Assembly: GCA_017619375.1 (NCBI GenBank)
Contig: JAFZSL010000073.1
Location: 1 to 35,240 of the forward strand
DNA: 35,240 nucleotides
Origin: Prevotella sp.
GTDB lineage: Bacteria; Bacteroidota; Bacteroidia; Bacteroidales; Bacteroidaceae
Direction of reading: 5' to 3'
Below, in pieces: positions 1,274-30,888 of the stretch. The notes below the pieces were generated by a model. The model saw only the letters and a program-made list of their open reading frames with translations. It was not told where the DNA came from and did not search any database. Within the stretch, counting starts at the first letter, position 1. The number at the start of each line of letters is the position of its first letter. The position numbers and the translations under genes were made by a program.

Positions 1274-4200
1274 TTATTTCACCATGACAGCTTTGCCATT
1301 GACGACATAGACGCCCTTGAGGCCGTCGAGGCTCTTGGCTTGCTTGCGCACGAGCTTGCCGTCGACAGTGTAGATGTCAACAGGTTGTCCGTCGACCATG
1401 ATGTTCTCAATGCCGTCGGTCACCAAAACGGTGGCGGTGGCAGGCTTGGACTCCTGACCGTTGGGATAGACAGCGCTCACGCCGAAGGTGTGCTCACCAC
1501 CGGTGATTTGGTCGATGCCCACGGTGTAGGTGGTCACGTCGCCTGCAACATTGGCGATGAGTTGACCCTCATAGTAGATGTTGAAGGAAGCAACGTCTGC
1601 GCCACCAGCGGTGTAAACGACGTCGTCAACGAACAATCCGAAGATGTCACCAGAGGTGTGGCGGATGGCGAAGTACTTCGTGTCGGCGGGAAGGTCGACA
1701 GAGAACTCCGTCCATTCTGTCACTTCGGTGCTGAAGTTTTGCACCTTCTTGAAGCTTTCGGGCTTGTTGTCGGTGGTGGAAGCGAGCACCTCGAAGGTCT
1801 CAGCGCCATACTGTGCGGTGATGGTGCGAGCCTGGAACTTGATGGTCTGTGCGATGCCGGGGAGTTCGGGCGAGATGAGCCAGTGGTCGGTGTAGTTGAC
1901 ACTGCCATCATCGTTTGGAATCACGCAGATGGACATCATGAACTGATTGCCGCTGAAGGCAGGCATGCTGCCGGCAAATCCAGCCTGGTCGGGATCAAAC
2001 ACCTGCCATGCGCAAGGAGCGGTGGCGTTGTCATAGGAGATGGAAGAACTGCTCCAAGTGTAGACCTCGATGCCTGTGGCGTCATAGACAGTCCAGTCGC
2101 CAAAAGCACCGTTGTGCTCGGTAGCGGTGATGCCGCCGATGCTGAAGGTCGGGAACACCTCGGTGTTCTCAAAGTCTTCAGTCTGCTCAACAGCACTGGT
2201 GTTGGGAGCTTCCCAGCTGAGGTCCACGCCTTCGCCACCCTTGTCTTGTGCTACAAGGTTTGTCGGAGCTGCAGCGGTGGACTCCTTGATGGCCACCACG
2301 GTCTCTGCGGTGTTGTTGGCGGTGTTCAGGTCCTTGTCGTAGGAAACTTCAGCCACGATGTTGACATCGCCAGCCTCGTCGAAGATGGAGGTTGCCAACT
2401 CTGCAGTGAACTCCTTGCTCTGAGCCGGGGCGAGAGCCTCGTCAACTGTCTGGGCAAACAATTCCTTGCCATTGGCCTTGAAGGTCACGATGTAACCGGA
2501 AGCCTCCTTCTCGCCCTCGTTCTTCACAACGGCGGTGATGGTGGCGGACTTGCCGGCTTGCACGGAAGCAGGAGCGGAAACGGTGATGGAGAGGTTGTGC
2601 TCGAGCAGGTCAACGATGCGGATGTTGTCGATCATCAGTGCGTCGCCCAGTTCCTCGATGCCGCCTGTCCACCAGTCGAACGTGGTGGCGTTGGCGAATT
2701 CGGCTGCGATGCCTACCCTGGCATATCCGTCATTCTTGAGTGCGGTCAGAGGCACTTGCACGGTGGTGTATTCATCGGTGGGCTTGACGGTGGAGAGCAC
2801 CTCCAAGGCTTCGCCGTTGACAGAACCGGTCACCTCAATCTGGTCGATACCGTCGGCAGCGACGTCGAACAACAAGGTGGGGTTGGAGGCGGTCTTCAAG
2901 TTCAGCTTGCCGGAGTTGAAGTAAGCCTTGCCAGGCTCTTCCACCAGCATCATCAGGGCTACGCCGTCGTCATCGGTGGACTCATCGGAAACCATCAAGC
3001 TGGCGTTGCTTTCCCAGTAATAGTGCAGTGTGCTGTTGGTGAAACCTTCCACCACGGGGAGGTCGTAGGGTGTGCCTACGAGGAGCGATGTGGAGCCAAT
3101 TCCACTTTCGCCCTTGTCGTTGCTGGCGATGATGCCCCAAACGATATCTTGTTGCTCGCCTTCCTCTGTGTTGTAAGGTGCCTCATAGGTGTTGGCATCG
3201 CGCAGGACGGCCATTGGTTCTTCGTCAAGCACGAGCATCTGGCCAAGCCAGGTATCCTCGTAGTGTGTGCCATAGACGCTGTAATCCACAGTAGCGGGAT
3301 CGACATAGCCACCAAGGGCGCCGATGTTGCCCACCTTGTCCCAGCCAAACAATACGCTGGAAACCTTGTCGTATGCAGTGAAGTTCTTCACGTCGGCTGG
3401 GACGTCGAAGCCTACAAAGACGGAGGCCTTGTTGCTCTTCAGACCAATGCCGAATTCATTGTAAGCCACGGCATAGTAGGTGTGGATGCTGTCGGCGACA
3501 GTCTCGTCAAGGTAGTTGACGGTTGCTCCGGGAGCAACTTCTGCTATTTCAGTCAGCAATTCACCGTCGCGGTAGATTTCCATCTTGTCCAGGCCGGTCA
3601 AGTCTTGACCAGCGACGGTCTTGGTGGGAGCGACCACCTCGATGCTGGCGTTCTTTGCACCTTCGGCACCAGGAGTGGCAGTCAGTTCGGGAGCGGCGGG
3701 AGCCTCGTCGGCAGCGCCCACTTCCACAGTCAGTTTGTTGATGAGAAGCAGGTATTGGTCAGCGTCGGAGATACCGTGGATGGCCACATAGTAAGTGCCC
3801 TCTTCAGTGCAGGAATAGACGCCTTCGAATGGCTCATTTTCCTCGTTGGTCAGTTCCACCGGGCCGAAGACCTTGTTGGAGAGACCTGCAGCGGTGGGTT
3901 CCTTGCCAATCACCACTTCGAAGCGCTCGTCATAACCATAGGAGCCGGCGTTGACGGTGATGTCGTAGTTCTTGCCAGCCACCATATGGAGCGGAGGAGA
4001 AATGAGGTAGTCGTCGGCGGCCTCTGAGCCGTTGTATCTGTAGTATGCTGCACTGTAGCTCTCGCTCCAAGCCCAGGTGTAACCGTCGTTGTTGGCATCG
4101 ATGTAGGTGAACTGCTCAAATGCTGTTCCAGTGCTGAAGTCGGCAGTGTAGGGGATTTCCATAATGGCTGTCAGGAACACTTCCACCTCGGCGCTCTTCT

Positions 4201-16106: not shown

Positions 16107-18368
16107 TCAAGGCAGCGTGTCTGCGAGGGGGTCGAAGAGGCCGTCGGCGTTGCGGCCCAAGTCGTGCCAACCCACGGTCTGGTGTAGCGTGGGGTTGGTC
16201 TGCATGGCGTTCTGGCGCAGGCCGAGGAAATAGTAGGTGGGACGATACTGGATGGTCAGCGACTCGTCGTTGCCGTCGAGATTCACGTCCTTGCGGCCGA
16301 GGAAGGTGTCGTAGAACTCTGCCAGGGTGCGCACCTTCTCGTTCTTGTACTCTCCATTGATGTAACTCATGTCCTCGTCGAGGGTGAGCGCCTCGGGACG
16401 GCTCCCTATGGTGGGGTCGGTGGCGGAGGCAGTGCGGCAGTAGATGATGATCTGATGGCGCTTTGTGCCGTTCAATGGTTTTACACCCAGGTAGTTGCAT
16501 GTGTTGCCACCGAAGCCGGTGAGTGCCCAGGTGGGTTTGATGGCTGCTTGGCCGACGCCACCGTCGAAGAGCATCCAGCGGTGCATGTCGTCGTAGCGGT
16601 TGCCCTCGTAAGCCAGTTCTATCTGACGCTCGTAGAGGATGGTGGCCAGCAGTCTTGCACGGTCGCCGGCGACGCCGGAGGGAAGGCCGTAGTTGTTGTC
16701 TGCCGTGTAGCCCACGCGGCTGCGGATTTGCTGCAAGGCGTTGACGGCCTCGTCGAAATGTCCGGCGCCGCAGGCTGCCTCTGCGAAGTTGAGCAGCACC
16801 TCGGTGTAGCGCATGGAGAGCAGCGGGGCGGCGCATTTCATGAAGCCCTTCGGGTTGCTCTGGCTGTTGATGTACTCATAGAAAGGAGTGCTGTGCAAGT
16901 AGAGGTCGTCGCTGCGCTTGCGCACATAGACGGAGTGGCTGCCGGCCTTGTCGGTGGTCTGTGTGAGCAGGTCGGGCCAGTAGCCGTTGGAGGAGGATAT
17001 TTTTGTCAGGTCGTCCTCATTGTCGTTCCACATGTAACTCCACAATTCGTAGTTGCGGCCGGAAGGATAGATGTCGGCAGGGATGATGCCCACGAGCGAC
17101 GGGTCGGAGAGGCTTACGCCGCCCTCGCTCCACTGCCACTGCACGCCGGGGAAGGCGAAGGTGCGGTAGAAGCGCGGGTCGCGGTTGAGCCAGAACTTCT
17201 TCTTGTCGTAGGGGATGCTACTCTCGCCGGGCTTCAGGCCGTCGGCCATGGGGAAGAGGTCCACCATCTCCGCCGTGGGGGTGTAACCGCCGCCACCATT
17301 GGCGTTGTGCGGACGGATGCTGTGCTCCCAGCGGTTGTACTTGCCGTAGTCGGGCTGGCCCGACACGTTGTCCTTCGTGTTGTGGAGGGTGGCGAAGACG
17401 GCCTCGGAGATGCTTCCGTCGCTGCCGATATAGTCCGTCCATTGGCGGGCCCAGTTGGCACCGTTGTTCTCACCACCGTTGCCGGCGTAGGCCAGTCCGA
17501 AGCCACCCTCGTTCAACTTGGCGAGGGCTTGCTTGTTGGTGACGTAGGCCTCCTCCCAGCGGGTGAGGTCGTCGGCGCGGTTGAAGACGGGGCTGGCCCA
17601 ATAGAGGCGCATCTTGCCAAGGAGGGCTTGCGCCAGGCCGGAGGTGACTCGTCCGAAGTCCTGGGCCTCGTTCTGCCATCGTGCGGGAAGCATGTTGGCT
17701 GCTTTCTCCAGGTCCTGGCAGATGAAATCTACGCAGTCCTTGGTGGTCTGCCTCGGGATGATGAGGTCGGAGCCGTCGCCGTCCTTGCCCAGGATGGGGT
17801 CTTGCACCTTGTCGATGATGGGCACGCCGCCGTAGATGGTCACCAGATGGTAGTACATGTAGGCGCGGAAGAAATAGGCCTGTCCGAGCAGCATGCCTTT
17901 CTCCTCGTCGGTAAACGACGATTTCTCCACGTTCTCTATCACGTCGTTGCAGTTGCGGATGTGTCCCCATGGGCTGTACACGTCGTTGGCCACGTAAAAG
18001 AAGTCGAAGTTGGAGCCAGAGAAGTTATAGGTGATTTCCTCCTCCGGGTCGACGAAGATGGAGAAATTGCCATATTCTTCGGTGCTCTTCGACCATTTGT
18101 CGGGGTTGCCCACCGACGTCCAGTCGTTGGGGTGGTTGGTGCCGTTGCCGTCGCCTCCGTCAGAGACGGGGAGCATCCAGTAATAGAGGTTGTTGACACG
18201 CTCCTGGGCACCGTTGAAGTTGCTGTAGGCGGTGGTCTGGTTGAAGTTGCCGTAGTTCTTCTTCTCTTTCAGGAAGTCGTCGCTGCACGAGGTGATGCCC
18301 ATGGCCATGGATGTGAGCACGAGGGCTGTTATGATATGATGCTTGTTGTTCATCTTGTAAATCCTCAT
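16107..18368 (-). CDS. SusD/RagB-family glycan-binding lipoprotein (long form)
   Basis: The protein has 753 residues, clearly longer than typical SusD proteins of about 500-600. A lipoprotein signal ends in GITSC (Cys28 with this start), followed by SDDFLKE, the usual SusD opening. Family features include GQAYFFRAYMYYHLVTIYGGVPII near 200 and the C-terminal LLNFAEAACGAGHFDEAVNAL with QIRSRVG. The late ERQIELAYEGNRYDDMHRW is a SusD hallmark. It should sit on the outer leaflet and bind the glycan that its SusC partner imports. ATG codons at 18368 and 18353 are both plausible. I prefer 18368, 7 bp after the susC stop; 18353 only shortens the signal peptide. The operon ends at the hairpin at 16051-16081. 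Confidence 0.92.
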   Translation of the reverse strand: MRIYKMNNKHHIITALVLTSMAMGITSCSDDFLKEKKNYGNFNQTTAYSNFNGAQERVNNLYYWMLPVSDGGDGNGTNHPNDWTSVGNPDKWSKSTEEYGNFSIFVDPEEEITYNFSGSNFDFFYVANDVYSPWGHIRNCNDVIENVEKSSFTDEEKGMLLGQAYFFRAYMYYHLVTIYGGVPIIDKVQDPILGKDGDGSDLIIPRQTTKDCVDFICQDLEKAANMLPARWQNEAQDFGRVTSGLAQALLGKMRLYWASPVFNRADDLTRWEEAYVTNKQALAKLNEGGFGLAYAGNGGENNGANWARQWTDYIGSDGSISEAVFATLHNTKDNVSGQPDYGKYNRWEHSIRPHNANGGGGYTPTAEMVDLFPMADGLKPGESSIPYDKKKFWLNRDPRFYRTFAFPGVQWQWSEGGVSLSDPSLVGIIPADIYPSGRNYELWSYMWNDNEDDLTKISSSNGYWPDLLTQTTDKAGSHSVYVRKRSDDLYLHSTPFYEYINSQSNPKGFMKCAAPLLSMRYTEVLLNFAEAACGAGHFDEAVNALQQIRSRVGYTADNNYGLPSGVAGDRARLLATILYERQIELAYEGNRYDDMHRWMLFDGGVGQAAIKPTWALTGFGGNTCNYLGVKPLNGTKRHQIIIYCRTASATDPTIGSRPEALTLDEDMSYINGEYKNEKVRTLAEFYDTFLGRKDVNLDGNDESLTIQYRPTYYFLGLRQNAMQTNPTLHQTVGWHDLGRNADGLFDPLADTLP

Positions 18369-18375
18369 TTTTAGG

Positions 18376-21300
18376 TTAGAACGATACACTGACACCCATG
18401 GTGTACTTGCGGAGGTTGGGGTAGCGGCCATAACCGCCAGCCCACGACGCCCAACTCTTGTCGGGGTAGTTGTTGATGAAGTTGACAGCGTTCTGGATGG
18501 TGAGGTTCAGGCGGACGTTGCTGACGCCGATTGTCTTCACCCAGGTGCGGGGGAGTTGGTAAGCCACGGTGATGTTGCGGAGCGTCAGCGTGGTGCCGTC
18601 GATGAGCCAGTAGGAGGAGGCTGCGTCGTTCACTTTGTCGTAGCGCATGTTGGGCATCTTTCCGGAGAGGTTGGCAGGGACGGTGATGCGTCCAGAGGCG
18701 TCGTAGATGTCCTCGTAGTTGAACATGTCGCTGAAGGAGGAGGGCATGTTCTCATACTCGTAGTTCTTGGCGGCCTGGCGGAAGTCGTTGCCCACCATGA
18801 TCTTGGAGCCCCAACCGGCGCTCAACTGCGCTTGGATGGAGAAACTCTTGTAACCGCCTTTGAGGTTCAGCGTGCAGCCATAGGGGTTGCTGGTGTATTC
18901 CGAGAGGCGGATGTAGTCGTTGCCGGCGGTCACCTTGCCGTCCTTCGGGCCATAGGTGCCGTCGCCGTTGTTGTCGCCATGGATGTCCTCGTAGATGAGC
19001 ATGCCGGGACGCACCTCGCTCTTCGTCATGCCCAGGTATTCGGTGATGCCGTAGCGGTCGAAGTATTCCTCGATTTCCTGGTAACTGCGGAACATTCCGA
19101 GACATTTAAAGCCCCACAGGCCGCGGTCGCTACGCTCGCCATAGACCATGTCGTCGTAGTTGGGGATGGCTTGGAAGTTGGTCTTCAGCACCTTGTTGTC
19201 GCTGAAGCCGGTGGAGAGTTTCACCTCATAGTAGATATCGCTGCCGATCTTGTCGCGCCAGCCCACATTGAGTTCCCATCCCCATGCGTCGAGTTCGCCG
19301 TAGTTCTCCGGGGTGGCCTGCGTTCCCACGGTGGTGGGGAACATCGAGGTGCCGGTGCGGGTGGCGAACATCTCGCGTCCTCGGTCGTAGTAGTAGTTGA
19401 AATCGAAGGTCAGGCGGTTGCGCAGGAAGTGCGCGTCGATGCCGATGTTCGTCTTGTAGGTCTTGTCCCAGTGTACGTCGGAGTTGACGCCGGCCTTGGG
19501 CATCACCAGTGCGTAACTCACGTCGGTGTTCAGGCCGTTGCTGCCGAAGACGGCTCCCTTGGCGGCGTTGCGCTCATAGAGTTGCGCCCAGAGCCATGCG
19601 CGGATGTTGTCGCGGCCCATCAAGCCCCACGATGCGCGGAGTTTGAGGAAGTCCACCCATTTCACATGTTCCTGGAACCAGTTCTCTTCGGATATCACCC
19701 ATCCGGCGCTCACCGACGGGAACTTGCCCCAGTAGTTCTTGGGGGCGAACTTGGTTGAGGCGTCGGCGCGGAAGAGGAACTCGAAGAGGTATTTGCTGGC
19801 GTAGGCGTAGTTGAAACGTCCCACATAGGAGAGCATGCCGCTCTCGCTGCGGTTGAACGACACGTCCTTGTCGCCCGTGCCGGAACTCGACTGTCCGTCC
19901 TGGTAGTCGATGAGGTCGGTGATGCTGCCGTAAAGGGGTTCGCTCCACGCCTCGCTCTTCTCGATGGAGAAGAGGCCGCTGACGTCGTGGAGTCCGAACT
20001 GCCGTGCATATTGCATGGTGAAGTTGAACTGGTAACTGTCGCTGCGCCCCATGTTGCGGCTGAGGAGGCCGCCGTTGCTCACCAGTCGGAGCACGCCCAT
20101 CGTGGTGTCGTCGTAAACGGCTCCCTCGCCGGTGTAGAGGTGGCCGCCCGACCCGGTGCGGTCGAGCATGCGATAGACGTTTTGGATGGTCTGCACCGTG
20201 TTGGTCTTGCTGTTGCTGATGTACTTGGAGTAGGAGAGTTTCGCAGAGAGGCCCTTCAAGGCGTGAATCCAGTCGAAACCGAGTTCGATGCTTCCGTTGA
20301 TGTTCAGGTTGTTGGTTTGGTTCTGCACGTTGTCGCTGTGGTTCTGCACGGCGGCGAAGTTGTAGAGTTGTGTCGCACTGGTGGGGATGCCGTTCTCCAT
20401 GCCGCTATAGACGAGGGGATAGCCGCCCACGTAGTCGGGGACGAAGGGGAGGTGCGTCATCAACCACTTGTAGTCGTAGTCGGTGCCGCCGCCCTGGGGT
20501 GAGGTGGAGTTGTTGCGCTCGCCCCAGTCGCCGCTAACTTGCAAGGCGGTCTTCACATACTTGCCGATGTTGGCGTTGATGCCGGCGCGGAAGTTCCAAC
20601 GCTCGTAGTCGAGACGTCCGATGTTGCCGTCTTGTGTATAGTAGGAGACGCCGCCGAAATAGGTGGCCTTGTCGTTGCCGCCGTTGATGTTGAGGCTGTG
20701 GCGCTGGGTCAGCGCCGTGCTCCATTCCTTGTCGAGAAGATTGTAGTCGAGGCTTCGTGCGGCTTCCATTTCGTCGGCTTGGAAGAGTTGGGTGCGCAGT
20801 TCGATGTTGTCCTGTGTCGAGGTGTTGGCGGCACGGATGGTGTTGTACACCTTCATGTAGTCATACGAACTGAGCATCTTCGGCGTGTAGAGTGCGTCGG
20901 TCCAGCCAAACTGTCCCGAATAACTGATTTTTGGGGCGGCGTTCTCGCCTTGCTTCGTCTTCACCAGCACTACGCCGTAGGCGGCACGGGCGCCATAGAC
21001 GGCGGCGGAGGCGTCCTTCAGCACGGTGATGCTCTCCACTTCGCTGATGTCGAGGTTGTTGAAGGCATTCTCTGTGGAGATGAAGCCGTCGATGACATAG
21101 AGCGGGGTGGGGTCGGGCTCTCCGCCACGGGTGGAGCCGGGGTCGTTGGTCGTGGCCATCACGTTGCTCTGTCGGATGTTGAGCGAGGGGCTTTGTCCCG
21201 GACGGTAGCCGTTGGCATTGACGCTCACGCCGTTGAACATTCCCACGAGGGCGTCGCCGAGGCTTCCCACCGAGAGGTCTTGGATGTCCTTGGGTGAGAT

Positions 21301-21669
21301 GGTTTCCACGGCGCCGGTGACATTCTTCATTTTCTGCGTGCCATAGCCCACCACCACGACCTCTTCGAGGCTTTGGCTGTCCACCACCAGGCGGACGACG
21401 CCGCCGGGTTTCACGGTCTGGGTGAGATAGCCGATGTAGGAGATGGAAATCTTGGCATCGTCGGGCACTTGCAACTCGTAGTTGCCGTCAATGTTGGTGA
21501 TGACGCCACCGGTCTTCTGCCCTACAATGGTGACAGTGGCTCCGATGACGGGTTCGCCGTTCTCGTCCAACACGGTGCCTCGCACCGTCTGACCTTGTGC
21601 AAAGGCCAGGGAGGGCAACAGGGTGAGGAGCAGCCCCAAGCACCAACGGATAAGGTGTGTCTTTTTCAT
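18376..21669 (-). CDS. SusC/RagA-family TonB-dependent outer-membrane transporter
   Basis: The protein has 1097 residues. The signal peptide is 1-25 (LPSLAFAQ). A carboxypeptidase-D-like regulatory domain follows at about 27-105 (TVRGTVLDENGEPVIGATV). The TonB-box region is LEEVVVVGYGTQKMKNVTGA. The plug contains PLYVIDGF and ITVLKDASAAVYGARAAYGV, both SusC signatures. The remainder is a 22-strand-type barrel ending in aromatic RKYTMGVSVSF. It imports oligosaccharides powered by TonB, with the SusD protein as its lid. It follows the beta-helix lipoprotein gene by 36 bp and precedes susD by 7 bp, so all three should be co-transcribed. The substrate cannot be read from sequence. Confidence 0.95.
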   Translation of the reverse strand: MKKTHLIRWCLGLLLTLLPSLAFAQGQTVRGTVLDENGEPVIGATVTIVGQKTGGVITNIDGNYELQVPDDAKISISYIGYLTQTVKPGGVVRLVVDSQSLEEVVVVGYGTQKMKNVTGAVETISPKDIQDLSVGSLGDALVGMFNGVSVNANGYRPGQSPSLNIRQSNVMATTNDPGSTRGGEPDPTPLYVIDGFISTENAFNNLDISEVESITVLKDASAAVYGARAAYGVVLVKTKQGENAAPKISYSGQFGWTDALYTPKMLSSYDYMKVYNTIRAANTSTQDNIELRTQLFQADEMEAARSLDYNLLDKEWSTALTQRHSLNINGGNDKATYFGGVSYYTQDGNIGRLDYERWNFRAGINANIGKYVKTALQVSGDWGERNNSTSPQGGGTDYDYKWLMTHLPFVPDYVGGYPLVYSGMENGIPTSATQLYNFAAVQNHSDNVQNQTNNLNINGSIELGFDWIHALKGLSAKLSYSKYISNSKTNTVQTIQNVYRMLDRTGSGGHLYTGEGAVYDDTTMGVLRLVSNGGLLSRNMGRSDSYQFNFTMQYARQFGLHDVSGLFSIEKSEAWSEPLYGSITDLIDYQDGQSSSGTGDKDVSFNRSESGMLSYVGRFNYAYASKYLFEFLFRADASTKFAPKNYWGKFPSVSAGWVISEENWFQEHVKWVDFLKLRASWGLMGRDNIRAWLWAQLYERNAAKGAVFGSNGLNTDVSYALVMPKAGVNSDVHWDKTYKTNIGIDAHFLRNRLTFDFNYYYDRGREMFATRTGTSMFPTTVGTQATPENYGELDAWGWELNVGWRDKIGSDIYYEVKLSTGFSDNKVLKTNFQAIPNYDDMVYGERSDRGLWGFKCLGMFRSYQEIEEYFDRYGITEYLGMTKSEVRPGMLIYEDIHGDNNGDGTYGPKDGKVTAGNDYIRLSEYTSNPYGCTLNLKGGYKSFSIQAQLSAGWGSKIMVGNDFRQAAKNYEYENMPSSFSDMFNYEDIYDASGRITVPANLSGKMPNMRYDKVNDAASSYWLIDGTTLTLRNITVAYQLPRTWVKTIGVSNVRLNLTIQNAVNFINNYPDKSWASWAGGYGRYPNLRKYTMGVSVSF

Positions 21670-21705
21670 ATCTTGTATTCCTTTTTTTGTTCTACATGGT
21701 TGGGG

Positions 21706-23154
21706 TTAGTTCCACCAGCGGGGGTCGCCGGTCTTGCGCTCCACCTGTTCGGCGCCGGTGGGGGTGAAATTGCCGTTGGCGGGGTCGATGAAGGCCGGGT
21801 CGGTCTGCAGCGCATTGTTGCTGATGTCGTAGGTGTTGGTGGTGAAGCCTTCCGTCTCTGGAGCGCCGTCATACCAATAGGTGTTGTAGGCGAAATTGAG
21901 GACGGCCGACGTGTTGATGCGTCCGGTGAGGCGGCGTGGCACCTGTCCGCTGCCACAGTCCACGAAGATGTTGTTGACGATGTCGTAGTTCGATGTGGCC
22001 TTGCCGTCAAAGCCGCTGTGGTTGGCCATCTGCCCTTTGTAGGCGATGTTGTAGAACGTGCAGTTGCGCAGGTTGATGGAGTTGGTCAGGTAGCCGGCGC
22101 GGTCGCAGCGGCAGGAGTTGTTATAGCGGATGAAATAGTTCACCGGGTTGTCGTTGGCCGACCAGAAGGTGCAGTTGGTGACTGTAAAGTCGTTGATGAA
22201 GCCGCCGCCGTCGTAGATTTGGAAATAGGCGGTGCTACCCATCTTCTCGTCGGGGGTGAATTTCACCAGGACGTTGGTCATCGAGAAGGTCTTCACGCAA
22301 TACTTGATTTTGCTGTCATACATAAAGGGACGGTTGACGTTGCTCACCGTGCAGTTGGTGAAGGTGATGGGGTCGGTGATCTGGTAGTAGTTCTGGTGGT
22401 CTGTGTCCAACTTGTCGGGGTCGGGGTTCTCGCTCAGGGCGATGAAAGGCTGGTTGGACTCTCCGCACTCGAAGTTGATGTATTTCGCCTTGAAACCGCT
22501 GCTGGTGGCCAGTCCGCCGGTGGGGCCATAGGTGATGGTGGCGTTGTTTGTCTTGCTGGTGGTGCGGAGGGTGACCACCTTGTTGCCGAAGTCGAGCACA
22601 GACGATAGGGTGTAGTGTCCGCCGGGGGTCAGGTCGAAGTTGAGGTTCATCCCCACGGAGTCTTCTGGGATGGGGTTGGCGGCGAACCACTCGTAGAGGT
22701 CGCCCTCGGGGATGGCGGCGTAGGAGGCTTCAAAGGAGTTGAAGAGTTTCTCGGTGGCCGTGGTGGCGTCGCTGTTGTTCAACTCGCTGTTGCCCAATGT
22801 GCGGAGGATGAGTTTGTAGTTCATGTCCTCCTCCCTGTCGGTGGTGATGGAGCAGCCGTCAACCACCTTGCTCACCAGCGGCTTACTCTCGTCGCTCAAG
22901 TCGTAGAGCGTCACTTCGTAGCCACGGGCGCCGTGCACCACGGGCCAGGCAATGGTCATCCGGTCGCCGTCGATGTTGGGCGTGATGGTGATGTCGCCTT
23001 CTGCGGGTGACGACAACTGCGTGTTCTTCACGTTGCTCACGAATTTCTCGTTGTCATCATAGGTATCCGCGCAGGAGGCCAGGAGCCATGCTCCTACTGC
23101 AATGGCGCATAGGAAACACAACCCCTTGATCGATACAAAGGATGATTTGTTCAT
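21706..23154 (-). CDS. Beta-helix lipoprotein, DUF4957/DUF5123-like, first gene of the SusCD operon
   Basis: The protein has 482 residues. The lipoprotein signal ends LLASC (Cys28), followed by ADTYDDNEKF. Residues about 45-130 resemble a fibronectin-III or SusE-like domain (PVVHGARGYEVTLYDL). Residues about 170-465 have the spaced NCT and FxN pattern of a right-handed parallel beta-helix (FTNCTVSNVNRPF, VTNCTFWSANDNP, LRNCTFYNI). The end, GDPRWW, is typical of DUF5123 proteins. Such proteins occur in Bacteroidetes glycan loci; I recall several beside pectin-degrading genes, but that is memory, not evidence from this window. It probably sits on the cell surface and binds glycan. No lyase catalytic residues are evident. 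The ATG at 23154 opens the signal peptide. Confidence 0.82.
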   Translation of the reverse strand: MNKSSFVSIKGLCFLCAIAVGAWLLASCADTYDDNEKFVSNVKNTQLSSPAEGDITITPNIDGDRMTIAWPVVHGARGYEVTLYDLSDESKPLVSKVVDGCSITTDREEDMNYKLILRTLGNSELNNSDATTATEKLFNSFEASYAAIPEGDLYEWFAANPIPEDSVGMNLNFDLTPGGHYTLSSVLDFGNKVVTLRTTSKTNNATITYGPTGGLATSSGFKAKYINFECGESNQPFIALSENPDPDKLDTDHQNYYQITDPITFTNCTVSNVNRPFMYDSKIKYCVKTFSMTNVLVKFTPDEKMGSTAYFQIYDGGGFINDFTVTNCTFWSANDNPVNYFIRYNNSCRCDRAGYLTNSINLRNCTFYNIAYKGQMANHSGFDGKATSNYDIVNNIFVDCGSGQVPRRLTGRINTSAVLNFAYNTYWYDGAPETEGFTTNTYDISNNALQTDPAFIDPANGNFTPTGAEQVERKTGDPRWWN

Positions 23155-23277
23155 AGGTTGGTTATTAAGTTATACATGTATGATTGTTCTAATTCATAGA
23201 CGTCAAAAAGGTGGTGATGCAACAACCATCTTTTGGGTTTCCTGGTTAGGAAGTAGGTCTCGTTTTTTAAGCAGTTT

Positions 23278-23308
23278 CAAAAGTAGTGAAAAAATATCAT
23301 ATCAACAA
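23278..23308 (-). promoter_or_regulatory. Promoter of the SusCD operon
   Basis: Minus-strand TTG (23306-23308), 20-bp spacer, TACTTTTG (23278-23285). It would give a 5' leader of roughly 115 nt before the ATG at 23154. No hybrid two-component or ECF sigma regulator gene lies in the window. Confidence 0.6.
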
Positions 23309-23447
23309 CTTTCAACATCGAAAACTACTCAAAAAGGGTCGATTTTTAATCTTTTCGGCCATTTTTTTGTCTGAAAACCACCAAAACGGGCTCGGTTTCC
23401 CTTTTTTCCCGTGACAATATGATAATCGGGCGGGCCCTACGACTTCG

Positions 23448-23520
23448 GGGGACGTATGTCTGTTTGATTCGGGAGTTAAAGAGGAGTTAAAGGGGAGTTA
23501 AAGGGACGTATGTCCACTTC
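23448..23520. repeat. 11-bp tandem array between two near-palindromes
   Basis: GGGACGTATGTCTGTTTGATTC (23448-23470) precedes three units of GGAGTTAAARR (23471-23503), then GGACGTATGTCC (23504-23515). It is the same module as at 10.9 and 33.2 kb but lies in a divergent gap, away from any stop codon. Confidence 0.8.
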
Positions 23521-23587
23521 ATCACTTTAATACAATTTAGTCCACTTGGGGCCTTTTGTCCAAGGTACTCGGTGTGTTAACTTGTAA

Positions 23588-23790
23588 AACCAACCCCGAA
23601 GGGGTGATAGAACACAGACGGGGGTGTAACCCCCGGGGACAGCAGGCCTATGCGCACCCCAACCCCGAAGGGGTGACAGAACACAGACGGGGGTGTCAAC
23701 CCCCGGGAGTTAAAGACACACTGGGTGCGCACTGTGAGCAAAAAGCCCGTGCTCATATCCCCTCCCCGGGGAGGGGATGGGGTGGGGTCT
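23588..23790. repeat. Dispersed GC-rich repeat (copy R3, two tandem units)
   Basis: The unit AACCCCGAAGGGGTGAYAGA, then ACACAGACGGGGGTGTMAAC, then CCCCGGG occurs twice, starting near 23592 and 23662. The second unit continues into GAGTTAAAGACACAC and a GGTGCGCACTG segment shared with R2. The 85-codon frame over it (NPEGVTEHRRG twice) is a repeat translation, not a gene. Confidence 0.8.
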
Positions 23791-23847
23791 GTAACTTGTT
23801 GTGTTTCAAATGATTTTTACACCCTCTTTGTACATTCCTCCGCCTGA

Positions 23848-24099
23848 ACATTCTTGGCGTTTTTGCTGCACTGAGGAAAGGACAATGCGTCTTTGGCGCA
23901 TGAAAAATTCCTTGACTCTGTAGGCAATATTAATGCGCCTCTGGCGCATAAAGTCCTTTTAGTCCTAAAAGTCCGTAGACCAACAGAGAACGGCTTTCCG
24001 CAGGGGAGACAGGAAGAATCCCGTCTCTATAGTGCGCACGGCGGGTTATGGGGCAATGCGAAGAATGTTCCGCCAGTGCAGCAGAAACGCCAAGAATGT
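23848..24099. repeat. 26-bp inverted repeat flanking about 200 bp
   Basis: Bases 23848-23873 (ACATTCTTGGCGTTTTTGCT and GCACTG) are the reverse complement of 24074-24099 with one mismatch. The interval holds two ATGCG..GGCGCAT hairpins (about 23884-23901 and 23932-23949) and the 29-nt repeat at 23952-23980 shared with 15971-15999. The total is about 252 bp. It could be a small non-autonomous mobile element or a composite of the local repeat family. I see no target-site duplication. Confidence 0.65.
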
Positions 24100-24265
24100 G
24101 CTGCTGGATGCGAATAACGGGTAAGGATTTTTTTTATCACCATCCCCATTTGAAGGTATGGGTCAGTCGATTTGATTGCCGACCATCATAACAATATGGT
24201 ATGCGGCTCATTAATAGCAATTAGCCTTATCAAAGAGCGTCGTCCAGATTACTGATTTTTGGGTA

Positions 24266-24296
24266 TTGTGCACTTTGGTGGAAGGGAGTAATTTTG
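24266..24296 (+). promoter_or_regulatory. Promoter of the porin-imelysin-dihaem-CcsBA operon
   Basis: TTG at 24266-24268, a 20-bp spacer and TAATTTTG at 24289-24296. Transcription would start about 25 bp before the ATG at 24330. No convincing Fur box is visible around it. Confidence 0.7.
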
Positions 24297-24329
24297 CACC
24301 GCCAACCAGATTATACTCATTTTATTGAT

Positions 24330-25727
24330 ATGATAAGAACTTTATTTTTCACTGCCGTTCTTGCCTTGTCGCCCCTTGTCGCTTCATCTCAGGAAACAGA
24401 TGACACGGGCGTGGATGCCATTACCGGCGCCACACGACAGGAGGCGAAGACCGAGAAGCAGGCAAACGCCATCTCCCGCCTGCATATCGGCGGTTATGGC
24501 GAGGCTGTCATGACACGTAATTTCTATAGTCAGAGTTTCAACCGTTATAAGAAACCCGAGAACTATGCCGATGACAAGAGTCATGGGCGCTTCGACCTCC
24601 CCCACGTGTGCCTGAACATCGGCTACGACTTCGGCAAGGGATGGACGATGGGTTCTGAGATAGAGTTTGAACATGGCGGCAATGGCACCGCCGTGGAGAT
24701 AGAGGCCGAGGAGGCCGGTGAATATGAGGCCGAGGTGGAGAAAGGCGGCGAGGTGAACATAGAGCAGTTCTGGATCAACAAGGAGTTCTGGAACGGCAAG
24801 TTCAACATCAAGGCTGGCGAAATCATCGTGCCGGTGGGCTACTCCAACGCCTACCACGAACCCAATCAGTTCTTCACCGCCTATCGTCCCGAGGGTGAGG
24901 CCACCATCATGCCCAACACCTGGCATCAGGTGGGACTCTCGTTGTGGGGACGGCTGAAGGAGTGGCGTTATGAGGCCCAACTGCTTTCCGGACTGAATTC
25001 CGAGAGTTTCACGGCAGAGAATTTCGTGCACTATGGAGCCACCAGTCCCTATGAGTTCAAGGTCGCCAACAACTACGCCGGTGCGTTGCGCATCGACAAT
25101 TATTCCGTCAAAGGCCTGCGCATCGGACTGAGCGGCTATTACGGCTACACTTTCCGCAACACCCTGCGCACGCCAGGCGCCAAATACGATGACGTGACGG
25201 GAGCATTGGGAATCGTTGCCTTGGATTTCTCACTCAATCGCTGGAACTGGATTGTTCGTGGCAATGTGGATTATGCCCATTTCAGCGATGCCGACGAAAT
25301 CTCGGCCTACAACCAAGCCAACTGGACGCACCACAAATATCAGGATGGCAATCCGCACCACTATTCCAACATCGGAAGCAATGCTCTGTCTTATGCCATC
25401 GAGGCCGGCTACAACGTCTTCTCGCAAATCCCCAGGTTGCATCAGGCGAATGAAAGACTATGGGTGTTCGGACGATTCGAACATTACGACACGATGGCTG
25501 CTGGCACCTATGAGTCGATGTACAAATATACGAAGAAATACCGCTGCGCTTTCGGCCTGAACTACTCGCCTGTGAAACAAGTCACCATCAAGGGAGAGTA
25601 CTCCTACCGGTACTTCGAGAAGCCAAACAACAACGGTCTCACTTCGGACAGCCCGCTTTACAAGCAACCCTACAACAACGAGCCAAGCATCAGCCTGGGC
25701 GTCACCTACTGTGGGAAACTGCTGTGA
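24330..25727 (+). CDS. Porin-like outer-membrane beta-barrel protein, first gene of the imelysin operon
   Basis: The protein has 465 residues and a signal peptide at 1-21 (LVASSQ). Alternating barrel-strand patterns run from about 50 to the end, for example LHIGGYGEAV, RFDLPHVCLNIGYDF and FNIKAGEIIVPVGYSN, closing with ISLGVTYCGKLL. It resembles phosphate-selective-porin-like proteins of Bacteroidetes. Residues 121-142 form a Glu-rich stretch (EIEAEEAGEYEAEVEKGGE), probably in a loop, which could attract cations. I chose the ATG at 24330 because it opens the signal peptide; the earlier in-frame ATG at 24294 overlaps the -7 box. The imelysin gene follows after 45 bp. Its likely role is passage of a small ligand, possibly iron, across the outer membrane; this comes from context only. 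Confidence 0.82.
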   Translation: MIRTLFFTAVLALSPLVASSQETDDTGVDAITGATRQEAKTEKQANAISRLHIGGYGEAVMTRNFYSQSFNRYKKPENYADDKSHGRFDLPHVCLNIGYDFGKGWTMGSEIEFEHGGNGTAVEIEAEEAGEYEAEVEKGGEVNIEQFWINKEFWNGKFNIKAGEIIVPVGYSNAYHEPNQFFTAYRPEGEATIMPNTWHQVGLSLWGRLKEWRYEAQLLSGLNSESFTAENFVHYGATSPYEFKVANNYAGALRIDNYSVKGLRIGLSGYYGYTFRNTLRTPGAKYDDVTGALGIVALDFSLNRWNWIVRGNVDYAHFSDADEISAYNQANWTHHKYQDGNPHHYSNIGSNALSYAIEAGYNVFSQIPRLHQANERLWVFGRFEHYDTMAAGTYESMYKYTKKYRCAFGLNYSPVKQVTIKGEYSYRYFEKPNNNGLTSDSPLYKQPYNNEPSISLGVTYCGKLL

Positions 25728-25772
25728 AAAGATGAAAGATGAAAACTAACGATAAATTAATAAAAGATTGAA

Positions 25773-26969
25773 ATGAAAAACAGGGATTTATTGAAAATGA
25801 CAGCCTTGGCTGTCGTGTTTACAACAGGCTTCGCCTCATGCTCAAGCGACGACGATGCCAACACGGAAACTGTCACAGGAAGCCAGGCCGCCCTCGACCA
25901 GGCTTGCAAGGACTGGAAAACGGCACGTGCCAACTGGGAGAATACCGAAGCCTTCCTCTTTGGTGCCGCAGACGTCTATTCCATCGACCCCCACACCGAC
26001 ACATGGCCGGTGGCCGCCAACGACCTGGCCGATGTGCTGCGAGATGAGAAGGCGATGTCCAACCTTGACAACTTCATCAAGACCGCCAACTCAGGCATCC
26101 TGGGCTATCATGGTTTGGAATACGTGCTCTTCCGTCAGGGAGCGCCACGGCAAATCAGTCAAATCACCAATCTGGAGTACAACTACATCTGTGCCGTGGC
26201 CAAGGACCTCTACAACGCCACGGCAACCTTGGAGGCCGCTTGGGACTCGCGTGAGAGCAACTCCGACCGGCATCAGATAGCCGTCAACTACGTGGCCACA
26301 CACAACGCCATCAACGACGACGGAGATGTGGAAGGGAAGTTGGGCTCGTTCCAAAACTTCGGCAAGGCCTTCAAAAACCCCGGCACTGGCGACTGGGCCA
26401 CGGCGCTCGACGCCACGCTGGAAATCATCTCCGGCTGCCAGGACATCATCGGCGAGGTGGGTGACTCCAAGATAGGACTTCCCTACACTGGCGAGGACGC
26501 CACCTACATCGAGTCGCCTTATGCCTACAATTCCATCACCGACTTCTACGACAACATCGTCAGTTGCAAAAACGCCCTCTTCGGAAAGATGGATGCCACC
26601 TCTCCCACACAGCAGTCGCTGGTCTACTTCTGCCAGAACTCTGGCAATGCGACGCTGGCAGGCCAGGCCAACATGGTGGTGACCAAACTTGACGTGGCAT
26701 TGGCCAAAATCAAGGCCATGAAGCATCCGTTCGCCCTCTACTTCTCCGACAACTCCTGCAAGGTGGCCATCGACGCACTCGAAGAGTTGGATGACGCGCT
26801 TGGCGCACTCTCCGAGACGCTCGCCGGATATGCCGGCAACAATACCGTGGAGGCACAATGCCAGGTCATCAACGAGAACTATGTGGACAACGTGGTGCTG
26901 GCCACCTACCGCACACTGGCTGACAATGCACAGAAACTCTATCAGTCGATTGTGAACATCAAAAAATAA
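25773..26969 (+). CDS. Imelysin-family (M75, IrpA-like) lipoprotein
   Basis: The protein has 398 residues. The lipoprotein signal ends GFASC (Cys23), followed by an acidic SSDDDAN tether. The imelysin signature GxHxxE appears as GYHGLE at 111-116, within SGILGYHGLEYVLFRQG. The upstream NTEAFLFGAADVYSIDPHTDTWP is also typical of the family. Imelysin proteins are all-helical. Despite the peptidase name, the family is linked to iron acquisition, and the His and Glu are thought to bind metal. It should be anchored in the membrane, facing the periplasm or the cell surface. The di-haem gene begins 6 bp after its stop, which suggests tight co-expression. Confidence 0.92.
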   Translation: MKNRDLLKMTALAVVFTTGFASCSSDDDANTETVTGSQAALDQACKDWKTARANWENTEAFLFGAADVYSIDPHTDTWPVAANDLADVLRDEKAMSNLDNFIKTANSGILGYHGLEYVLFRQGAPRQISQITNLEYNYICAVAKDLYNATATLEAAWDSRESNSDRHQIAVNYVATHNAINDDGDVEGKLGSFQNFGKAFKNPGTGDWATALDATLEIISGCQDIIGEVGDSKIGLPYTGEDATYIESPYAYNSITDFYDNIVSCKNALFGKMDATSPTQQSLVYFCQNSGNATLAGQANMVVTKLDVALAKIKAMKHPFALYFSDNSCKVAIDALEELDDALGALSETLAGYAGNNTVEAQCQVINENYVDNVVLATYRTLADNAQKLYQSIVNIKK

Positions 26970-26975
26970 ACTGCC

Positions 26976-28679
26976 ATGAACAAACCTTTCTTTTTCGGGA
27001 TTGTTCTGATGGGAACCTTCGTCATCGCCGGTTGTTCCGACGATGACGATTCTCCCACGACATGGGAGATAGGCGACCCTGCCACGTCGGACTATCCAGA
27101 GGATTACTACGCTGGCGGACAACTCGGCACCACCACGGTGAACACCGCCACTGCCTTCGAGCAACCCTCGAAAGCAGTGGAGAATGCCGGAATGATGACG
27201 GCCTTCAACGAGGGAGAATATCTCTTTGAAAAGGACTATAACACCAACACCGACGGTGCTTTCCATGGCCTCGGACCCGTCTATGTGCGTCGTGGATGCC
27301 TTTACTGCCACCCGGGCTACGGCCATGGGGCACGGCAGACGGAATACAAGGCCGACATGCACCGCAACGGCTACCTGCTCGTCGTCTACGACAAGACTAC
27401 CAACGCTTACATCCGCTCCGTGGCCGGCATGCCGCAGACCGGTGCCGTGAAGCCTTTCAAGGCTCCCATCGACGAGAACAAAATCAGCATCGCGTGGAAC
27501 AACTACACCGACGAATGGGGCAACAAATTCCCTGACGGCGAGACCTATTCGCTCATCTATCCGGAGGTGACCATCCCCTACAGTGCCTATTACGCTCCAG
27601 TGGTGGTGCAGCGCGGCGGTGCCGACGTGACCCTCTCCGAAGCGGAATACAACAACGACATCGGCGTGCTGCTGGAATCGACCATCGGCATTTACGGCAC
27701 AGGAATGACCGATGCCATCCCCGATGAAGATATCACCGCCCAATGGAGGGCGGAGAGTGAGTATTTCAACAGCATCGGCCGCACCGACGCACTGAACCCC
27801 GCCATGTGGAACCAAGCCACCAACACTTGGAACAGTTATTACAGCAACTCATTGCAAGGAGACGGTACGAAATATGTGCGCCGATACACCTATGCCCTGT
27901 CACGCGGACCCATCCTTGACGCCGCCGGTGCCAACGCCATCTGGAACATCACCAATGTGACGCGTTCCGACCGCCGCTACCACTACCTCGACCTCGCTGG
28001 CAAGTACTATGCCACGACCTCGTCGAAAGACCCGGAGGTGCAGGCGGGCTTCACCGAATACATCAATCGTGTCGACCCGGCTAAGATGCACCCCGAATGG
28101 CACACGGGGGACTTGGAGAAAGACATTTACACCTATCTGACCAGCAAGTCGCTTGATGCCGAGATGACCGATGCTCAATACAAGAACCTCATGATATGGC
28201 ACCGCGGCTTGGCCGTCCCTGCCGCACGCAACACCACCACCGATGACTTCAAGGAGGGCAAGCGCCTGTTCACGCAGATAGGTTGTGCCTCCTGTCACCG
28301 TCCATCGTGGCAGACGGGCGAGGACCACATCCAGGACCCGGCCAGGTTCTTCTTGTCCGACAGCGACATGCCACGCTATCCCCACCAGAAGATATGGCCC
28401 TACACGGATTTCGTACAGCATCGCCTGTGGATGAAGAACGACATTCGTACCGGCTGGTGCCGCACCACACCGCTGTGGGGGCGCGGACTGGCCGCCAAGT
28501 GTGGCAGCGGCGTGGAACGTCTGCACGACTGTCGTGCACGCAACGTCATGGAGGCTATCATGTGGCACGGCTGCAAGAACGAGGGCGGCACGAGTGATGC
28601 CTACAACTCCGTCGTGCAGTTCCGCAACCTGACGAAAAAGCAACGTGACCAAATCATCTTTTTCATAGAATCCATATAA
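26976..28679 (+). CDS. Di-haem c-type cytochrome lipoprotein (DUF1111 / thiol-oxidoreductase-like)
   Basis: The protein has 567 residues. The lipoprotein signal ends VIAGC (Cys20). There are two covalent haem motifs: CLYCH at 108-112 and CASCH at 437-441. The C-terminal block TTPLWGRGL, then RLHDCRARNVMEAIMWHG, matches the DUF1111 family, which is related to di-haem peroxidases and often labelled thiol oxidoreductase. Extra cysteines occur at 495, 509, 519 and 533; 519 replaces the glycine I expect in LHDGRA. It probably passes electrons in the periplasm or at the surface. With imelysin beside it, a role in changing the redox state of iron is plausible but inferred. Haem attachment would need the CcsBA encoded 10 bp downstream. 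Confidence 0.9.
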   Translation: MNKPFFFGIVLMGTFVIAGCSDDDDSPTTWEIGDPATSDYPEDYYAGGQLGTTTVNTATAFEQPSKAVENAGMMTAFNEGEYLFEKDYNTNTDGAFHGLGPVYVRRGCLYCHPGYGHGARQTEYKADMHRNGYLLVVYDKTTNAYIRSVAGMPQTGAVKPFKAPIDENKISIAWNNYTDEWGNKFPDGETYSLIYPEVTIPYSAYYAPVVVQRGGADVTLSEAEYNNDIGVLLESTIGIYGTGMTDAIPDEDITAQWRAESEYFNSIGRTDALNPAMWNQATNTWNSYYSNSLQGDGTKYVRRYTYALSRGPILDAAGANAIWNITNVTRSDRRYHYLDLAGKYYATTSSKDPEVQAGFTEYINRVDPAKMHPEWHTGDLEKDIYTYLTSKSLDAEMTDAQYKNLMIWHRGLAVPAARNTTTDDFKEGKRLFTQIGCASCHRPSWQTGEDHIQDPARFFLSDSDMPRYPHQKIWPYTDFVQHRLWMKNDIRTGWCRTTPLWGRGLAAKCGSGVERLHDCRARNVMEAIMWHGCKNEGGTSDAYNSVVQFRNLTKKQRDQIIFFIESI

Positions 28680-28689
28680 AACAATTCTG

Positions 28690-30888
28690 GTGAACAAGAA
28701 ACTCATCCTTGCCCTATACACATCCATCATGGTGTGTATAGGGTTTGCCACTATCATGGAGAAATATCATGACACCGGTTTTGTCAGAGAGCACATCTAC
28801 GGCGCCTGGTGGTTTTCCACGCTGTGGGCGATACTCACCGTGGCATCTTGTGCCTGTTTCTTCAAGCAGCGCCTGTACAAGCGTTTTGCTGTCATGTTGC
28901 TGCACTTGTCGTTCGTTGTGATACTGGCTGGCGCGTTGGTTACCCATCTCTTTGCCCATAGCGGCGTGGTGGCGCTTCGCACCGGCCTTCCCGTCATGTC
29001 GTATGTCGACCACGAAGGCAATAGCCAGCCGCTGCCCTTCTCCCTGACATTGAAGGAATTCCGCATTGTCAACTATCCTGGGACCGACGCCCCTCTCGAT
29101 TACCAAAGTGTCATACAAACAACTGGTGGGGATACATCCCCGACCGAAGTGCTTGTCTCCATGAACCACATCGGGCACATCGGAGGCTATCGTTTCTTCC
29201 AGTCCAGTTTCGACTCCGACGGTCAAGGTGTCTTGCTCGGTGTAGGCTACGACCCGTATGGCATTGCCGTCACCTATTGTGGCTACCTCCTGCTCTTGGT
29301 GGGCATCATCGCCACGCTGCTGTCACGCAAGACGCGGATGCGCACCCTTTATCGCAAAGCCATGCAGCCGCTGGCCATCCTTCTGGTTTTGGCTTCTTAC
29401 GCCTCACCTCTCCGTGCCAACGATGACTTGCAGACTGTCGACAAGGACATTGCTCATCGCATGGGCGCCATCAGCGTACTCTACAACAACCGTATCTGTC
29501 CGCTCAACACCGTGGCGACGGATTTCGTCACCAAGTTGTCGGGCAAGGCATCGTGGAAAGGCTATTCTGCCGACGAAATCTTCACCAGTTGGATGATTTA
29601 CTACTCACCTTGGGAAAAGGAGAAGATGATACGCGTGAAGAACCGCGATGTGCAGCAGATGCTGGGTATCGACGGACAATGGGCGTGCTACAGTGATTTC
29701 CTGGATGAGTACAAGGAATACAAACTGAAGAAAGCCATAGAGGACATGAGGAACGGGGATGGTTCCATCCCTAAGAAAGGCTTGATGGAGGCGGATGAGA
29801 AATTCCATCTGGTGGAGATGTTCTATCGCGGAGAGTTCATTAGGATGTTTCCCTACCGCGTAGGAGACGATGTCAATTGGTACGTGCCCGGCGGACAGTC
29901 GCTGCCGAAGGAGATTCCAGTCAAGGAACAGTTCTTTGTCAAGCAGTCCATGGATTTTCTCACGGAAAGCATAGTGACGGGACAGCGCGACAGGGCTTTT
30001 GAAATCATCGCGAAAATCAAACTCTTCCAACGTGAGATGGCTGGCGAGGTTTTGCCCGATGAAAGCATGACCAAAGCGGAGGTTTTCTACAATACTATGC
30101 GAAGTCGGAAATGGCCGGTGTTACTTGCCCTGACGCTTGGTTTGCTGCTGTGCGTGGTCATGCTTGTTTCTGCTTCGCTGGGAAAGTGGCTCAAGGTGGT
30201 GGCTCTATCGTATGTCATATTGTTGGCAACGTATGTCACGGTGCTGCTCGGCCTGCGCTGGTGGTTGAGCGGACACATTCCCGTGAGCAACGGACACGAG
30301 ACGATGCTCTTCATGGCATGGGTGCTGCTCTTGCTGACCATCCTCCTACGCCGTAAGTTTTCCATCGTCCTGGGCTTTGGACCTTTGGTCGCTTCTTTTT
30401 GCTTGCTGGTGGCCATGCTGGCGGGAAGCAACTCGCAAATCACCCCTTTGATGCCCGTGCTTCAGTCGCCCTTGCTCTCCGTCCATGTCATGACGGTGAT
30501 GTGCGCCTATGCATTGTTCGCCCTGCAATTGCTCATGGGCTTGCAGGCTTTACTCTTGGCAAGGAATGAAAAGGATGCGGAATTGGAGAGGCTCACCGCC
30601 CTGTCGCAACTGATGCTCTATCCCGCCGTGTTCCTGCTCGCCATCGGCATATTCCTCGGGGCTGTATGGGCCAATGTGTCATGGGGCAATTATTGGTCGT
30701 GGGACCCCAAGGAGTCGTGGGCGCTCATCACGCTCATGGTCTATGCCGTGCCTTTCCACAAACAGTCTTTCGGCTTTTTCCAAAAACCTCTCTGCTACCA
30801 CATCTACATGGTGGGCGCCTTCCTGACAGTCGTCATCACCTATTTCGGTGTGAATTATCTCTTGGGAGGCATGCACAGTTACGCCTGA
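28690..30888 (+). CDS. Cytochrome c biogenesis fusion protein CcsBA (system II)
   Basis: The protein has 732 residues. System II synthases export haem and attach it to CXXCH motifs. The N-terminal part is CcsB/ResB-like, with membrane segments near 5-22, 40-57 and 65-90 and another near 190-212. A large periplasmic domain spans about 235-460. The C-terminal CcsA half has a series of helices with the tryptophan-rich haem-handling motif WANVSWGNYWSWDPKESW at about 660. The fusion form is usual in Bacteroidetes. The start is a GTG at 28690, 10 bp after the di-haem gene stop; no ATG fits as well. Its place at the end of the operon suggests that it matures the di-haem protein. It could also serve other c-type cytochromes of the cell. 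Confidence 0.93.
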   Translation: MNKKLILALYTSIMVCIGFATIMEKYHDTGFVREHIYGAWWFSTLWAILTVASCACFFKQRLYKRFAVMLLHLSFVVILAGALVTHLFAHSGVVALRTGLPVMSYVDHEGNSQPLPFSLTLKEFRIVNYPGTDAPLDYQSVIQTTGGDTSPTEVLVSMNHIGHIGGYRFFQSSFDSDGQGVLLGVGYDPYGIAVTYCGYLLLLVGIIATLLSRKTRMRTLYRKAMQPLAILLVLASYASPLRANDDLQTVDKDIAHRMGAISVLYNNRICPLNTVATDFVTKLSGKASWKGYSADEIFTSWMIYYSPWEKEKMIRVKNRDVQQMLGIDGQWACYSDFLDEYKEYKLKKAIEDMRNGDGSIPKKGLMEADEKFHLVEMFYRGEFIRMFPYRVGDDVNWYVPGGQSLPKEIPVKEQFFVKQSMDFLTESIVTGQRDRAFEIIAKIKLFQREMAGEVLPDESMTKAEVFYNTMRSRKWPVLLALTLGLLLCVVMLVSASLGKWLKVVALSYVILLATYVTVLLGLRWWLSGHIPVSNGHETMLFMAWVLLLLTILLRRKFSIVLGFGPLVASFCLLVAMLAGSNSQITPLMPVLQSPLLSVHVMTVMCAYALFALQLLMGLQALLLARNEKDAELERLTALSQLMLYPAVFLLAIGIFLGAVWANVSWGNYWSWDPKESWALITLMVYAVPFHKQSFGFFQKPLCYHIYMVGAFLTVVITYFGVNYLLGGMHSYA

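Follow-up and report, generated by a model that had tools for sequence, protein, structure and literature searches.

A four-gene operon for a porin, an imelysin, a di-haem cytochrome and a haem lyase

The window analysed here is a stretch of 35,240 nucleotides from Prevotella sp. (assembly GCA_017619375.1, contig JAFZSL010000073.1, forward strand), which is contig C14 of a 4.26-Mb genome. At positions 24330-30888 four intact open reading frames (ORFs) were found on the same strand in a tight operon, coding for a porin, an imelysin (peptidase family M75), a di-haem c-type cytochrome of the DUF1111/thiol oxidoreductase type (DHOR) and a haem lyase (CcsBA). The intergenic spacings amount to 45 bp (25728-25772), 6 bp (26970-26975) and 10 bp (28680-28689). 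A four-gene module with these spacings, including a GxHxxE imelysin, a lipoprotein with two CXXCH sites and a haem-attachment synthase, had been described before from the letters alone (the original prediction); the module proved to be real, and its families were confirmed by Pfam matches and motifs, except for the porin, for which a barrel was modelled.

24330-25727, + strand: porin gene, 465 aa, with a signal peptide and a predicted 16-strand barrel (ORF and structure model)
25773-26969, + strand: imelysin (M75) lipoprotein gene, 398 aa, circularly permuted (ORF, Pfam, alignment and profile doubling)
26976-28679, + strand: DHOR di-haem c-type cytochrome lipoprotein gene, 567 aa (Pfam, alignment and model)
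28690-30888, + strand: fused ResB-CcsA (CcsBA) system II haem lyase gene, 732 aa, GTG start (ORF, Pfam and NCBIfam)

The genome contains one imelysin gene, one DHOR gene and three CcsA-type matches. The nearest relatives by DHOR identity (96-92%, named records) are metagenome-assembled genomes of Prevotella or Prevotellaceae, several of them from rumen or forestomach, and the host bacterium is probably a rumen dweller.

Conservation of the gene set

Gene order was compared in a near set of 79 loci from named genome records, in a distant set, 23 loci representing other families within the order, and in 198 genomes sampled from the order, which was taken as Bacteroidales as inferred from the nearest relatives. 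The full order porin-imelysin-DHOR-CcsBA was present on one strand in 60/79 near loci; 16 were interrupted by a contig end and three (L042, L048, L052) had the porin-imelysin-DHOR triad but no CcsBA within 8 kb downstream. Among the 198 genomes, 24 had DHOR, counting one match below the cut-off and one fragment, and 23 had imelysin. Both occurred together in 22 genomes, adjacent every time, with 2.8 expected (Fisher 7e-26, a value that ignores relatedness), so that the rare co-occurrence of the families, named beforehand as grounds for refutation, does not apply to imelysin and DHOR. Besides that of the window, 23 DHOR loci were obtained, 16 with the four genes in order, five without CcsBA nearby (L119 at a contig end), one a fragment and one unrelated. 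Since gene order is kept in this majority of both near and distant loci, a chance arrangement is excluded.

DHOR was present in 37/198 genomes of a phylum sample, and 20 loci outside the order were chosen from the 36 of these that are not the window's own. The triad was found in six (L146-L148, L151, L156, L157), imelysin and DHOR without a porin match in seven and DHOR and porin without imelysin in seven; CcsBA was found in none of the 20 within the stretches compared. Because the triad occurs outside the order and linked CcsBA was seen only inside it, the CcsBA linkage may be younger than the triad. Two variations were seen among the loci: L124 (G189:C7) has two tandem DHOR genes in one locus, and in L115, L116, L117 and L120 two more genes follow DHOR, one for another porin-like protein (by eye; the ORFs span 405-456 aa) and one for a lipoprotein of about 250 aa containing a single CXXCH, with a 366-384 aa protein close by.

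The imelysin is circularly permuted

The imelysin matched Peptidase_M75 (PF09375) with an E-value of 3.1e-36 and 125.9 bits (gathering cut-off 23.5). Two features were located in it:

26103-26120, + strand: GxHxxE motif (GYHGLE, residues 111-116), from the alignment
26838-26963, + strand: residues 356-397 at the C-terminus, which correspond by homology to the helix at the N-terminus of canonical imelysins (32.9 bits alone)

The GxHxxE motif occurred exactly once in each of 88/88 complete relatives. In the alignment E56, E59, D72 and D76 are retained, and their spacing matches the proposed metal site IV of IrpA (PMC9174327). In canonical imelysins the segments follow the order A-B-C, and the Bacteroides ovatus protein PIBO (3n8u) is C-A-B in the same notation (PMC3143127). 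The window imelysin does not have the canonical order but is B-C-A, i.e. it is cut between A and B, whereas PIBO, a permuted member of the same M75 family, is cut between B and C. This was seen with a profile built from 18 canonical imelysins and a doubled query sequence, which lets the alignment span the junction: doubling gained 26.4-35.4 bits in 67/67 near imelysins and 144-158 bits in 3/3 PIBO-type imelysins, but changed the score by -3.3 to -2.4 bits in 18/18 canonical ones. Inspection of the alignment by eye agreed with the order B-C-A. Since M75 already counts permuted members (PMC3143127), this order does not exclude membership of the family. The only publication on imelysin circular permutation that turned up in our literature search was PMC3143127; it includes a permuted protein from Prevotella bergensis, by which the B-C-A permutation may already be known in part.

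The porin has a conserved glutamate-rich loop

The porin gave no match to Pfam or NCBIfam, and the family Porin_O_P (PF07396) was matched by 10/42 aligned porins, that of the window not among them. Its AlphaFold model (pLDDT 83) has 16 barrel strands by our own count. VIA-align placed OprO (24.6), OprP (24.5) and PorB (24.1) level, all within 1 Z, so that the sub-family is tied; identity to the phosphate porins OprO/OprP is 12%, and where these have an arginine ladder the window porin has an acidic loop:

24657-24764, + strand: glutamate-rich hairpin of the porin, residues 110-145, predicted to be extracellular, with ten invariant Glu (alignment and model)

Fourteen acidic residues are invariant in the porin, and the ten in the hairpin are all Glu (42/42 sequences, down to 30% identity). 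In the model the hairpin is predicted to face the cell exterior. The loop was compared in 13 porins adjoining DHOR outside the order. The full loop was found in L147, L156 and L157 (10/10 Glu) and in L146 (7/10 Glu), all four being triad loci; 7/7 porins adjoining DHOR without imelysin lacked the full loop, as did the second porin-like proteins of L115, L116, L117 and L120. Thus, among the porins examined (those elsewhere were not searched), the full Glu loop occurs only next to imelysin and DHOR, a pattern for part of which relatedness may account.

DHOR and imelysin are probable surface lipoproteins

DHOR matched DUF1111 (PF06537) with an E-value of 3.2e-29 and 102.2 bits (gathering cut-off 22), and its model matched bacterial di-haem peroxidases in structure. 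Two CXXCH sites were present in each of 93/93 complete relatives. Haem sites and export-type signals are located as follows:

27297-27311, + strand: haem site 1 of DHOR, CLYCH, residues 108-112; Cys, Cys and His invariant in 41/41 aligned
28284-28298, + strand: haem site 2 of DHOR, CASCH, residues 437-441; Cys, Cys and His invariant in 41/41 aligned
27036-27050, + strand: export-type signal SDDDD after the lipobox Cys of DHOR (sequence; PMC5080379)
25842-25856, + strand: acidic export-type signal SSDDD after the lipobox Cys of the imelysin (sequence; PMC5080379)

SDDDD is the consensus of Bacteroides fragilis surface lipoproteins and functional as export signal in Capnocytophaga canimorsus, where it is weaker than the native signal (PMC5080379). 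At least two acidic residues follow the lipobox Cys in 31/40 DHOR and 27/36 imelysins, compared with 13% and 17%, respectively, of random 5-mers drawn from these proteins themselves. Judged by these signals, the putatively metal-binding imelysin and the di-haem DHOR are probably both surface lipoproteins. From the literature, the Bacteroides thetaiotaomicron M75 protein BT_2479 was detected in culture supernatant (PMC6282197), its signal peptide was employed for colicin secretion (PMC13192842), and PIBO and ICMP were predicted at the outer membrane (PMC3143127).

CcsBA is a frequent but dispensable partner

The fourth protein combines ResB (PF05140, E 3.2e-16) with Cytochrom_C_asm (PF01578, E 2e-33). 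With ResB and CcsA fused and a WWD motif it has the features of a system II haem lyase; its score for the CcsB equivalog TIGR03144 of NCBIfam (145.4 bits) lies below the curated cut-off of 187.6.

30682-30705, + strand: haem-handling WWD motif, WGNYWSWD, CcsBA residues 665-672 (sequence)

The genome also holds two split ResB/CcsA pairs, both on contig C44. One (L114, C44:34.7-38.7 kb) directly follows two ORFs with four CXXCH each, which are probably nrfHA, and a Crp-like regulator ORF was seen upstream by eye; the second lies about 10 kb away, adjoining an ammonium-transporter-like ORF. In another genome (L137, G106:C11) a 464-aa ORF with three CXXCH stands next to a split ResB/CcsA pair, and its DHOR-like match is weak and below the family cut-off.

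ResB is common in the order (135/198 genomes) and is linked to DHOR in 17 of the 22 genomes with both imelysin and DHOR, the window included. Where the triad has no CcsBA nearby, ResB is encoded elsewhere in the genome, in frames of 291-320 aa in the genomes of L042, L048 and L052 and of 727-858 aa in the distant genomes G003, G020, G088 and G105. CcsBA is therefore not obligatory but a frequent, dispensable partner of the triad. The suggestion that the operon carries its own cytochrome maturation thus holds for the window and for most genomes of the order that have both proteins, and not as a general rule.

Promoter element and candidate regulator

The promoter extends from 24251 to 24296 and has two parts:

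24251-24268, + strand: conserved promoter/operator element ACTGATTTTTGGGTATTG, overlapping the -33 region
24289-24296, + strand: -7 box TAATTTTG, of the Bacteroidota TAnnTTTG type, 20 bp after the element

A TTG at 24294 was rejected as start of the porin, being inside the -7 box; the ATG at 24330 gives a start with a signal peptide. The element ACTNATTTTTRGGTATTG was found within three mismatches in 53/67 promoters (the window and 66 close loci), a count that is partly circular since the consensus was derived from the same promoters. In 46 of these 53 promoters exactly 20 bp separate the end of the element from TAnnTTTG, and simple base shuffles of all 88 promoters gave it within three mismatches in 0/1760. 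Among 21 distant promoters three had it within three mismatches, and the best match stood at the 20-bp spacing in eight. The single promoter assumed for the operon is supported by this conserved element upstream of the porin.

A gene for a hemerythrin-LuxR protein (PF01814, PF00196) was found near the operon in 40/79 near loci, divergent from the porin in 34 and downstream in six, and in 5/23 distant loci. In the window, positions 23160-24240, where 34/79 relatives have this divergent gene, form a stretch of about 1 kb without an ORF of at least 90 aa beyond that at 23102-23374. The same combination of hemerythrin and LuxR helix-turn-helix is known from CdhR (PG1236-37, BT0519-20), is fused in Prevotella intermedia and goes up at low iron (PMC10434189); unlike in the CdhR cases, the gene here is divergent from the porin in those relatives. 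CdhR-type genes rise at low iron in Porphyromonas gingivalis and B. thetaiotaomicron, and CdhR regulates hmuYR (PMC10434189). A CdhR-type hemerythrin-LuxR regulator may control the operon.

A probable role in iron acquisition

In B. thetaiotaomicron the locus BT2473-2482 is induced 62.7-323.7-fold at low iron and is also up in a colitis dataset, and the nrfAH operon, which has a ccsA and a ccsB of its own, is 30-36-fold down at low iron (PMC10434189). Since one rises while the other falls, B. thetaiotaomicron appears to exchange haem lyases as iron falls. Imelysin-DUF1111 operons have been tied to iron uptake (PMC3143127). The induction of BT2473-2482, these operons and the CdhR-type regulator near half of the near loci support a link to iron, and the module is probably an outer-membrane or surface system for iron acquisition under iron starvation. 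The original prediction is thus partly supported: its iron link stands, a cytochrome maturation of its own is present in the window and not obligatory, and acquisition or sensing may be redox-linked, as it had proposed.

In the mechanism that we propose, the imelysin with its GxHxxE metal site and the di-haem DHOR would be lipoproteins that are flipped across the outer membrane and sit at the cell surface next to the 16-strand porin, whose extracellular Glu-rich loop would draw metal cations. The imelysin would capture iron, and DHOR would alter its redox state or remove peroxide that would react with it. The iron would then cross the porin into the periplasm and reach FeoB. Before DHOR is exported, CcsBA would carry haem across the inner membrane and attach it to both of its CXXCH sites.

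Several points weigh against this assignment. Iron regulation was measured in B. thetaiotaomicron and for a larger locus, and homology to it is drawn from annotation names and the similar loci found here; iron binding, the redox step and complex formation are steps that we infer. The operon contains neither a TonB receptor nor an inner-membrane iron permease, and the FTR1-type permease EfeU (PF03239) gave no match in the genome, with 4/14 control genomes positive. The genome shows no regulon of the promoter element (one exact and one two-mismatch match, compared with two control matches), and its hemerythrin-LuxR copy, 67% identical, lies on contig C52 and not next to the operon; near the operon this gene was not found in 28/67 near loci with a porin, 23 of them with more than 3 kb upstream covered. 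Further, the family assignment of the porin is weak, residues 115-139 at the loop tip are modelled with a pLDDT below 50, and two of the six triad porins outside the order (L148, L151) lack the full loop.

A protective role is unlikely. In this reading DHOR, at the surface or in the periplasm, would act as a peroxidase on H2O2 and take the electrons from Fe2+ or from small donors. The Fe3+ formed would be held by the imelysin, so that the operon would serve peroxide defence of an iron-starved anaerobe and not feeding. The likeness of the DHOR model to di-haem peroxidases and the hemerythrin domain of the regulator would fit, as would Leptospira, where imelysins and 'thiol oxidoreductases' increase with H2O2 (PMC7567364). 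However, the B. thetaiotaomicron locus responds strongly to iron depletion itself (PMC10434189), the export signals and the Glu-loop porin indicate uptake, and the peroxidase activity of DHOR is putative.

It is rather doubtful that DHOR is a maturase like MauG or MbnH which oxidises Trp or Tyr of the imelysin, or of the porin, to form its metal site: plain peroxidases match the DHOR model equally well (less than 1 Z apart, hence tied), and we know of no modified residues in imelysin crystal structures. Similarly doubtful is the extended form. Here DHOR would not act on iron directly; as a surface maturase it would use its two haems to oxidise an invariant Trp of the imelysin (or the loop region of the porin), which would give the iron site. 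Together with the imelysin and the Glu-loop porin it would make up a single iron gate in the outer membrane, independent of TonB and equipped with an enzyme of its own for haem loading. It is also improbable that the module handles haem or another metal (copper, zinc, manganese) in place of free iron. In these bacteria haem stress overlaps with iron stress. The M75 protein EfeM binds Cu, Fe and Zn (PMC9174327), but the published induction is by iron depletion (PMC10434189) and the relatives are iron-regulated. An MtrCAB-like conduit for extracellular electron transfer would also combine a porin with a c-type cytochrome lipoprotein in one operon, but is very improbable: MtrB-type barrels are wider than this OprO/OprP-like 16-strand barrel, and DHOR, unlike multihaem MtrCAB, has only two haem sites, too few to span the membrane.

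If iron acquisition is indeed the function, gut and rumen bacteria of the order own a TonB-independent, haem-dependent surface route for iron, which in B. thetaiotaomicron is on at iron starvation and in colitis. The working of imelysins and their di-haem partners is still poorly understood, and the operon offers handles on it: a ten-Glu porin loop that tracks the imelysin, two lipoproteins probably exposed at the surface, and candidates for an operator and a regulator. The imelysin adds a second natural circular permutation of its fold.

Elsewhere in the window, positions 16107-23154 encode a SusD/SusC-like pair and a DUF4992-DUF4957-DUF5123 protein and resemble an ordinary polysaccharide utilisation locus, and positions 1274-6646 encode a 1790-aa protein with a cleaved-adhesin domain and CARDB.

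Comparison with known systems

For the four-gene set in Prevotella, the B-C-A imelysin and the imelysin-linked Glu-loop porin no publication was found in literature that was covered mostly in part; the connection with the hemerythrin regulator did not have a search of its own. Like EfeUOB, the module pairs an M75 domain with a haem peroxidase partner; unlike there, DHOR is a c-type di-haem protein and the parts look outer-membrane, not inner-membrane. The imelysin-DUF1111 (ICMP) operons PA4370-4373 of Pseudomonas aeruginosa and VC1264-1266 of Vibrio cholerae are iron-regulated (Fur) and, as here, have an imelysin beside a di-haem DUF1111 protein (PMC3143127). They encode two imelysin-like proteins each, whereas the window has one imelysin together with the Glu-loop porin and CcsBA; three of the loci compared from outside the order (L150, L152 and L155) have an imelysin on either side of DHOR. 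BT2473-2482 unites, as the window does, porin, thiol oxidoreductase (DHOR), peptidase M75 (imelysin) and CcsA in one locus, but has ten genes, including a fimbrillin, a helix-turn-helix regulator and hypotheticals, where the form in the window has four; its published gene names and order fit the larger loci L115, L116, L117 and L120. Since this locus with the same named genes is published as induced by iron starvation, the module is not a new kind of system, and its link to iron is largely supported and already documented in kind.

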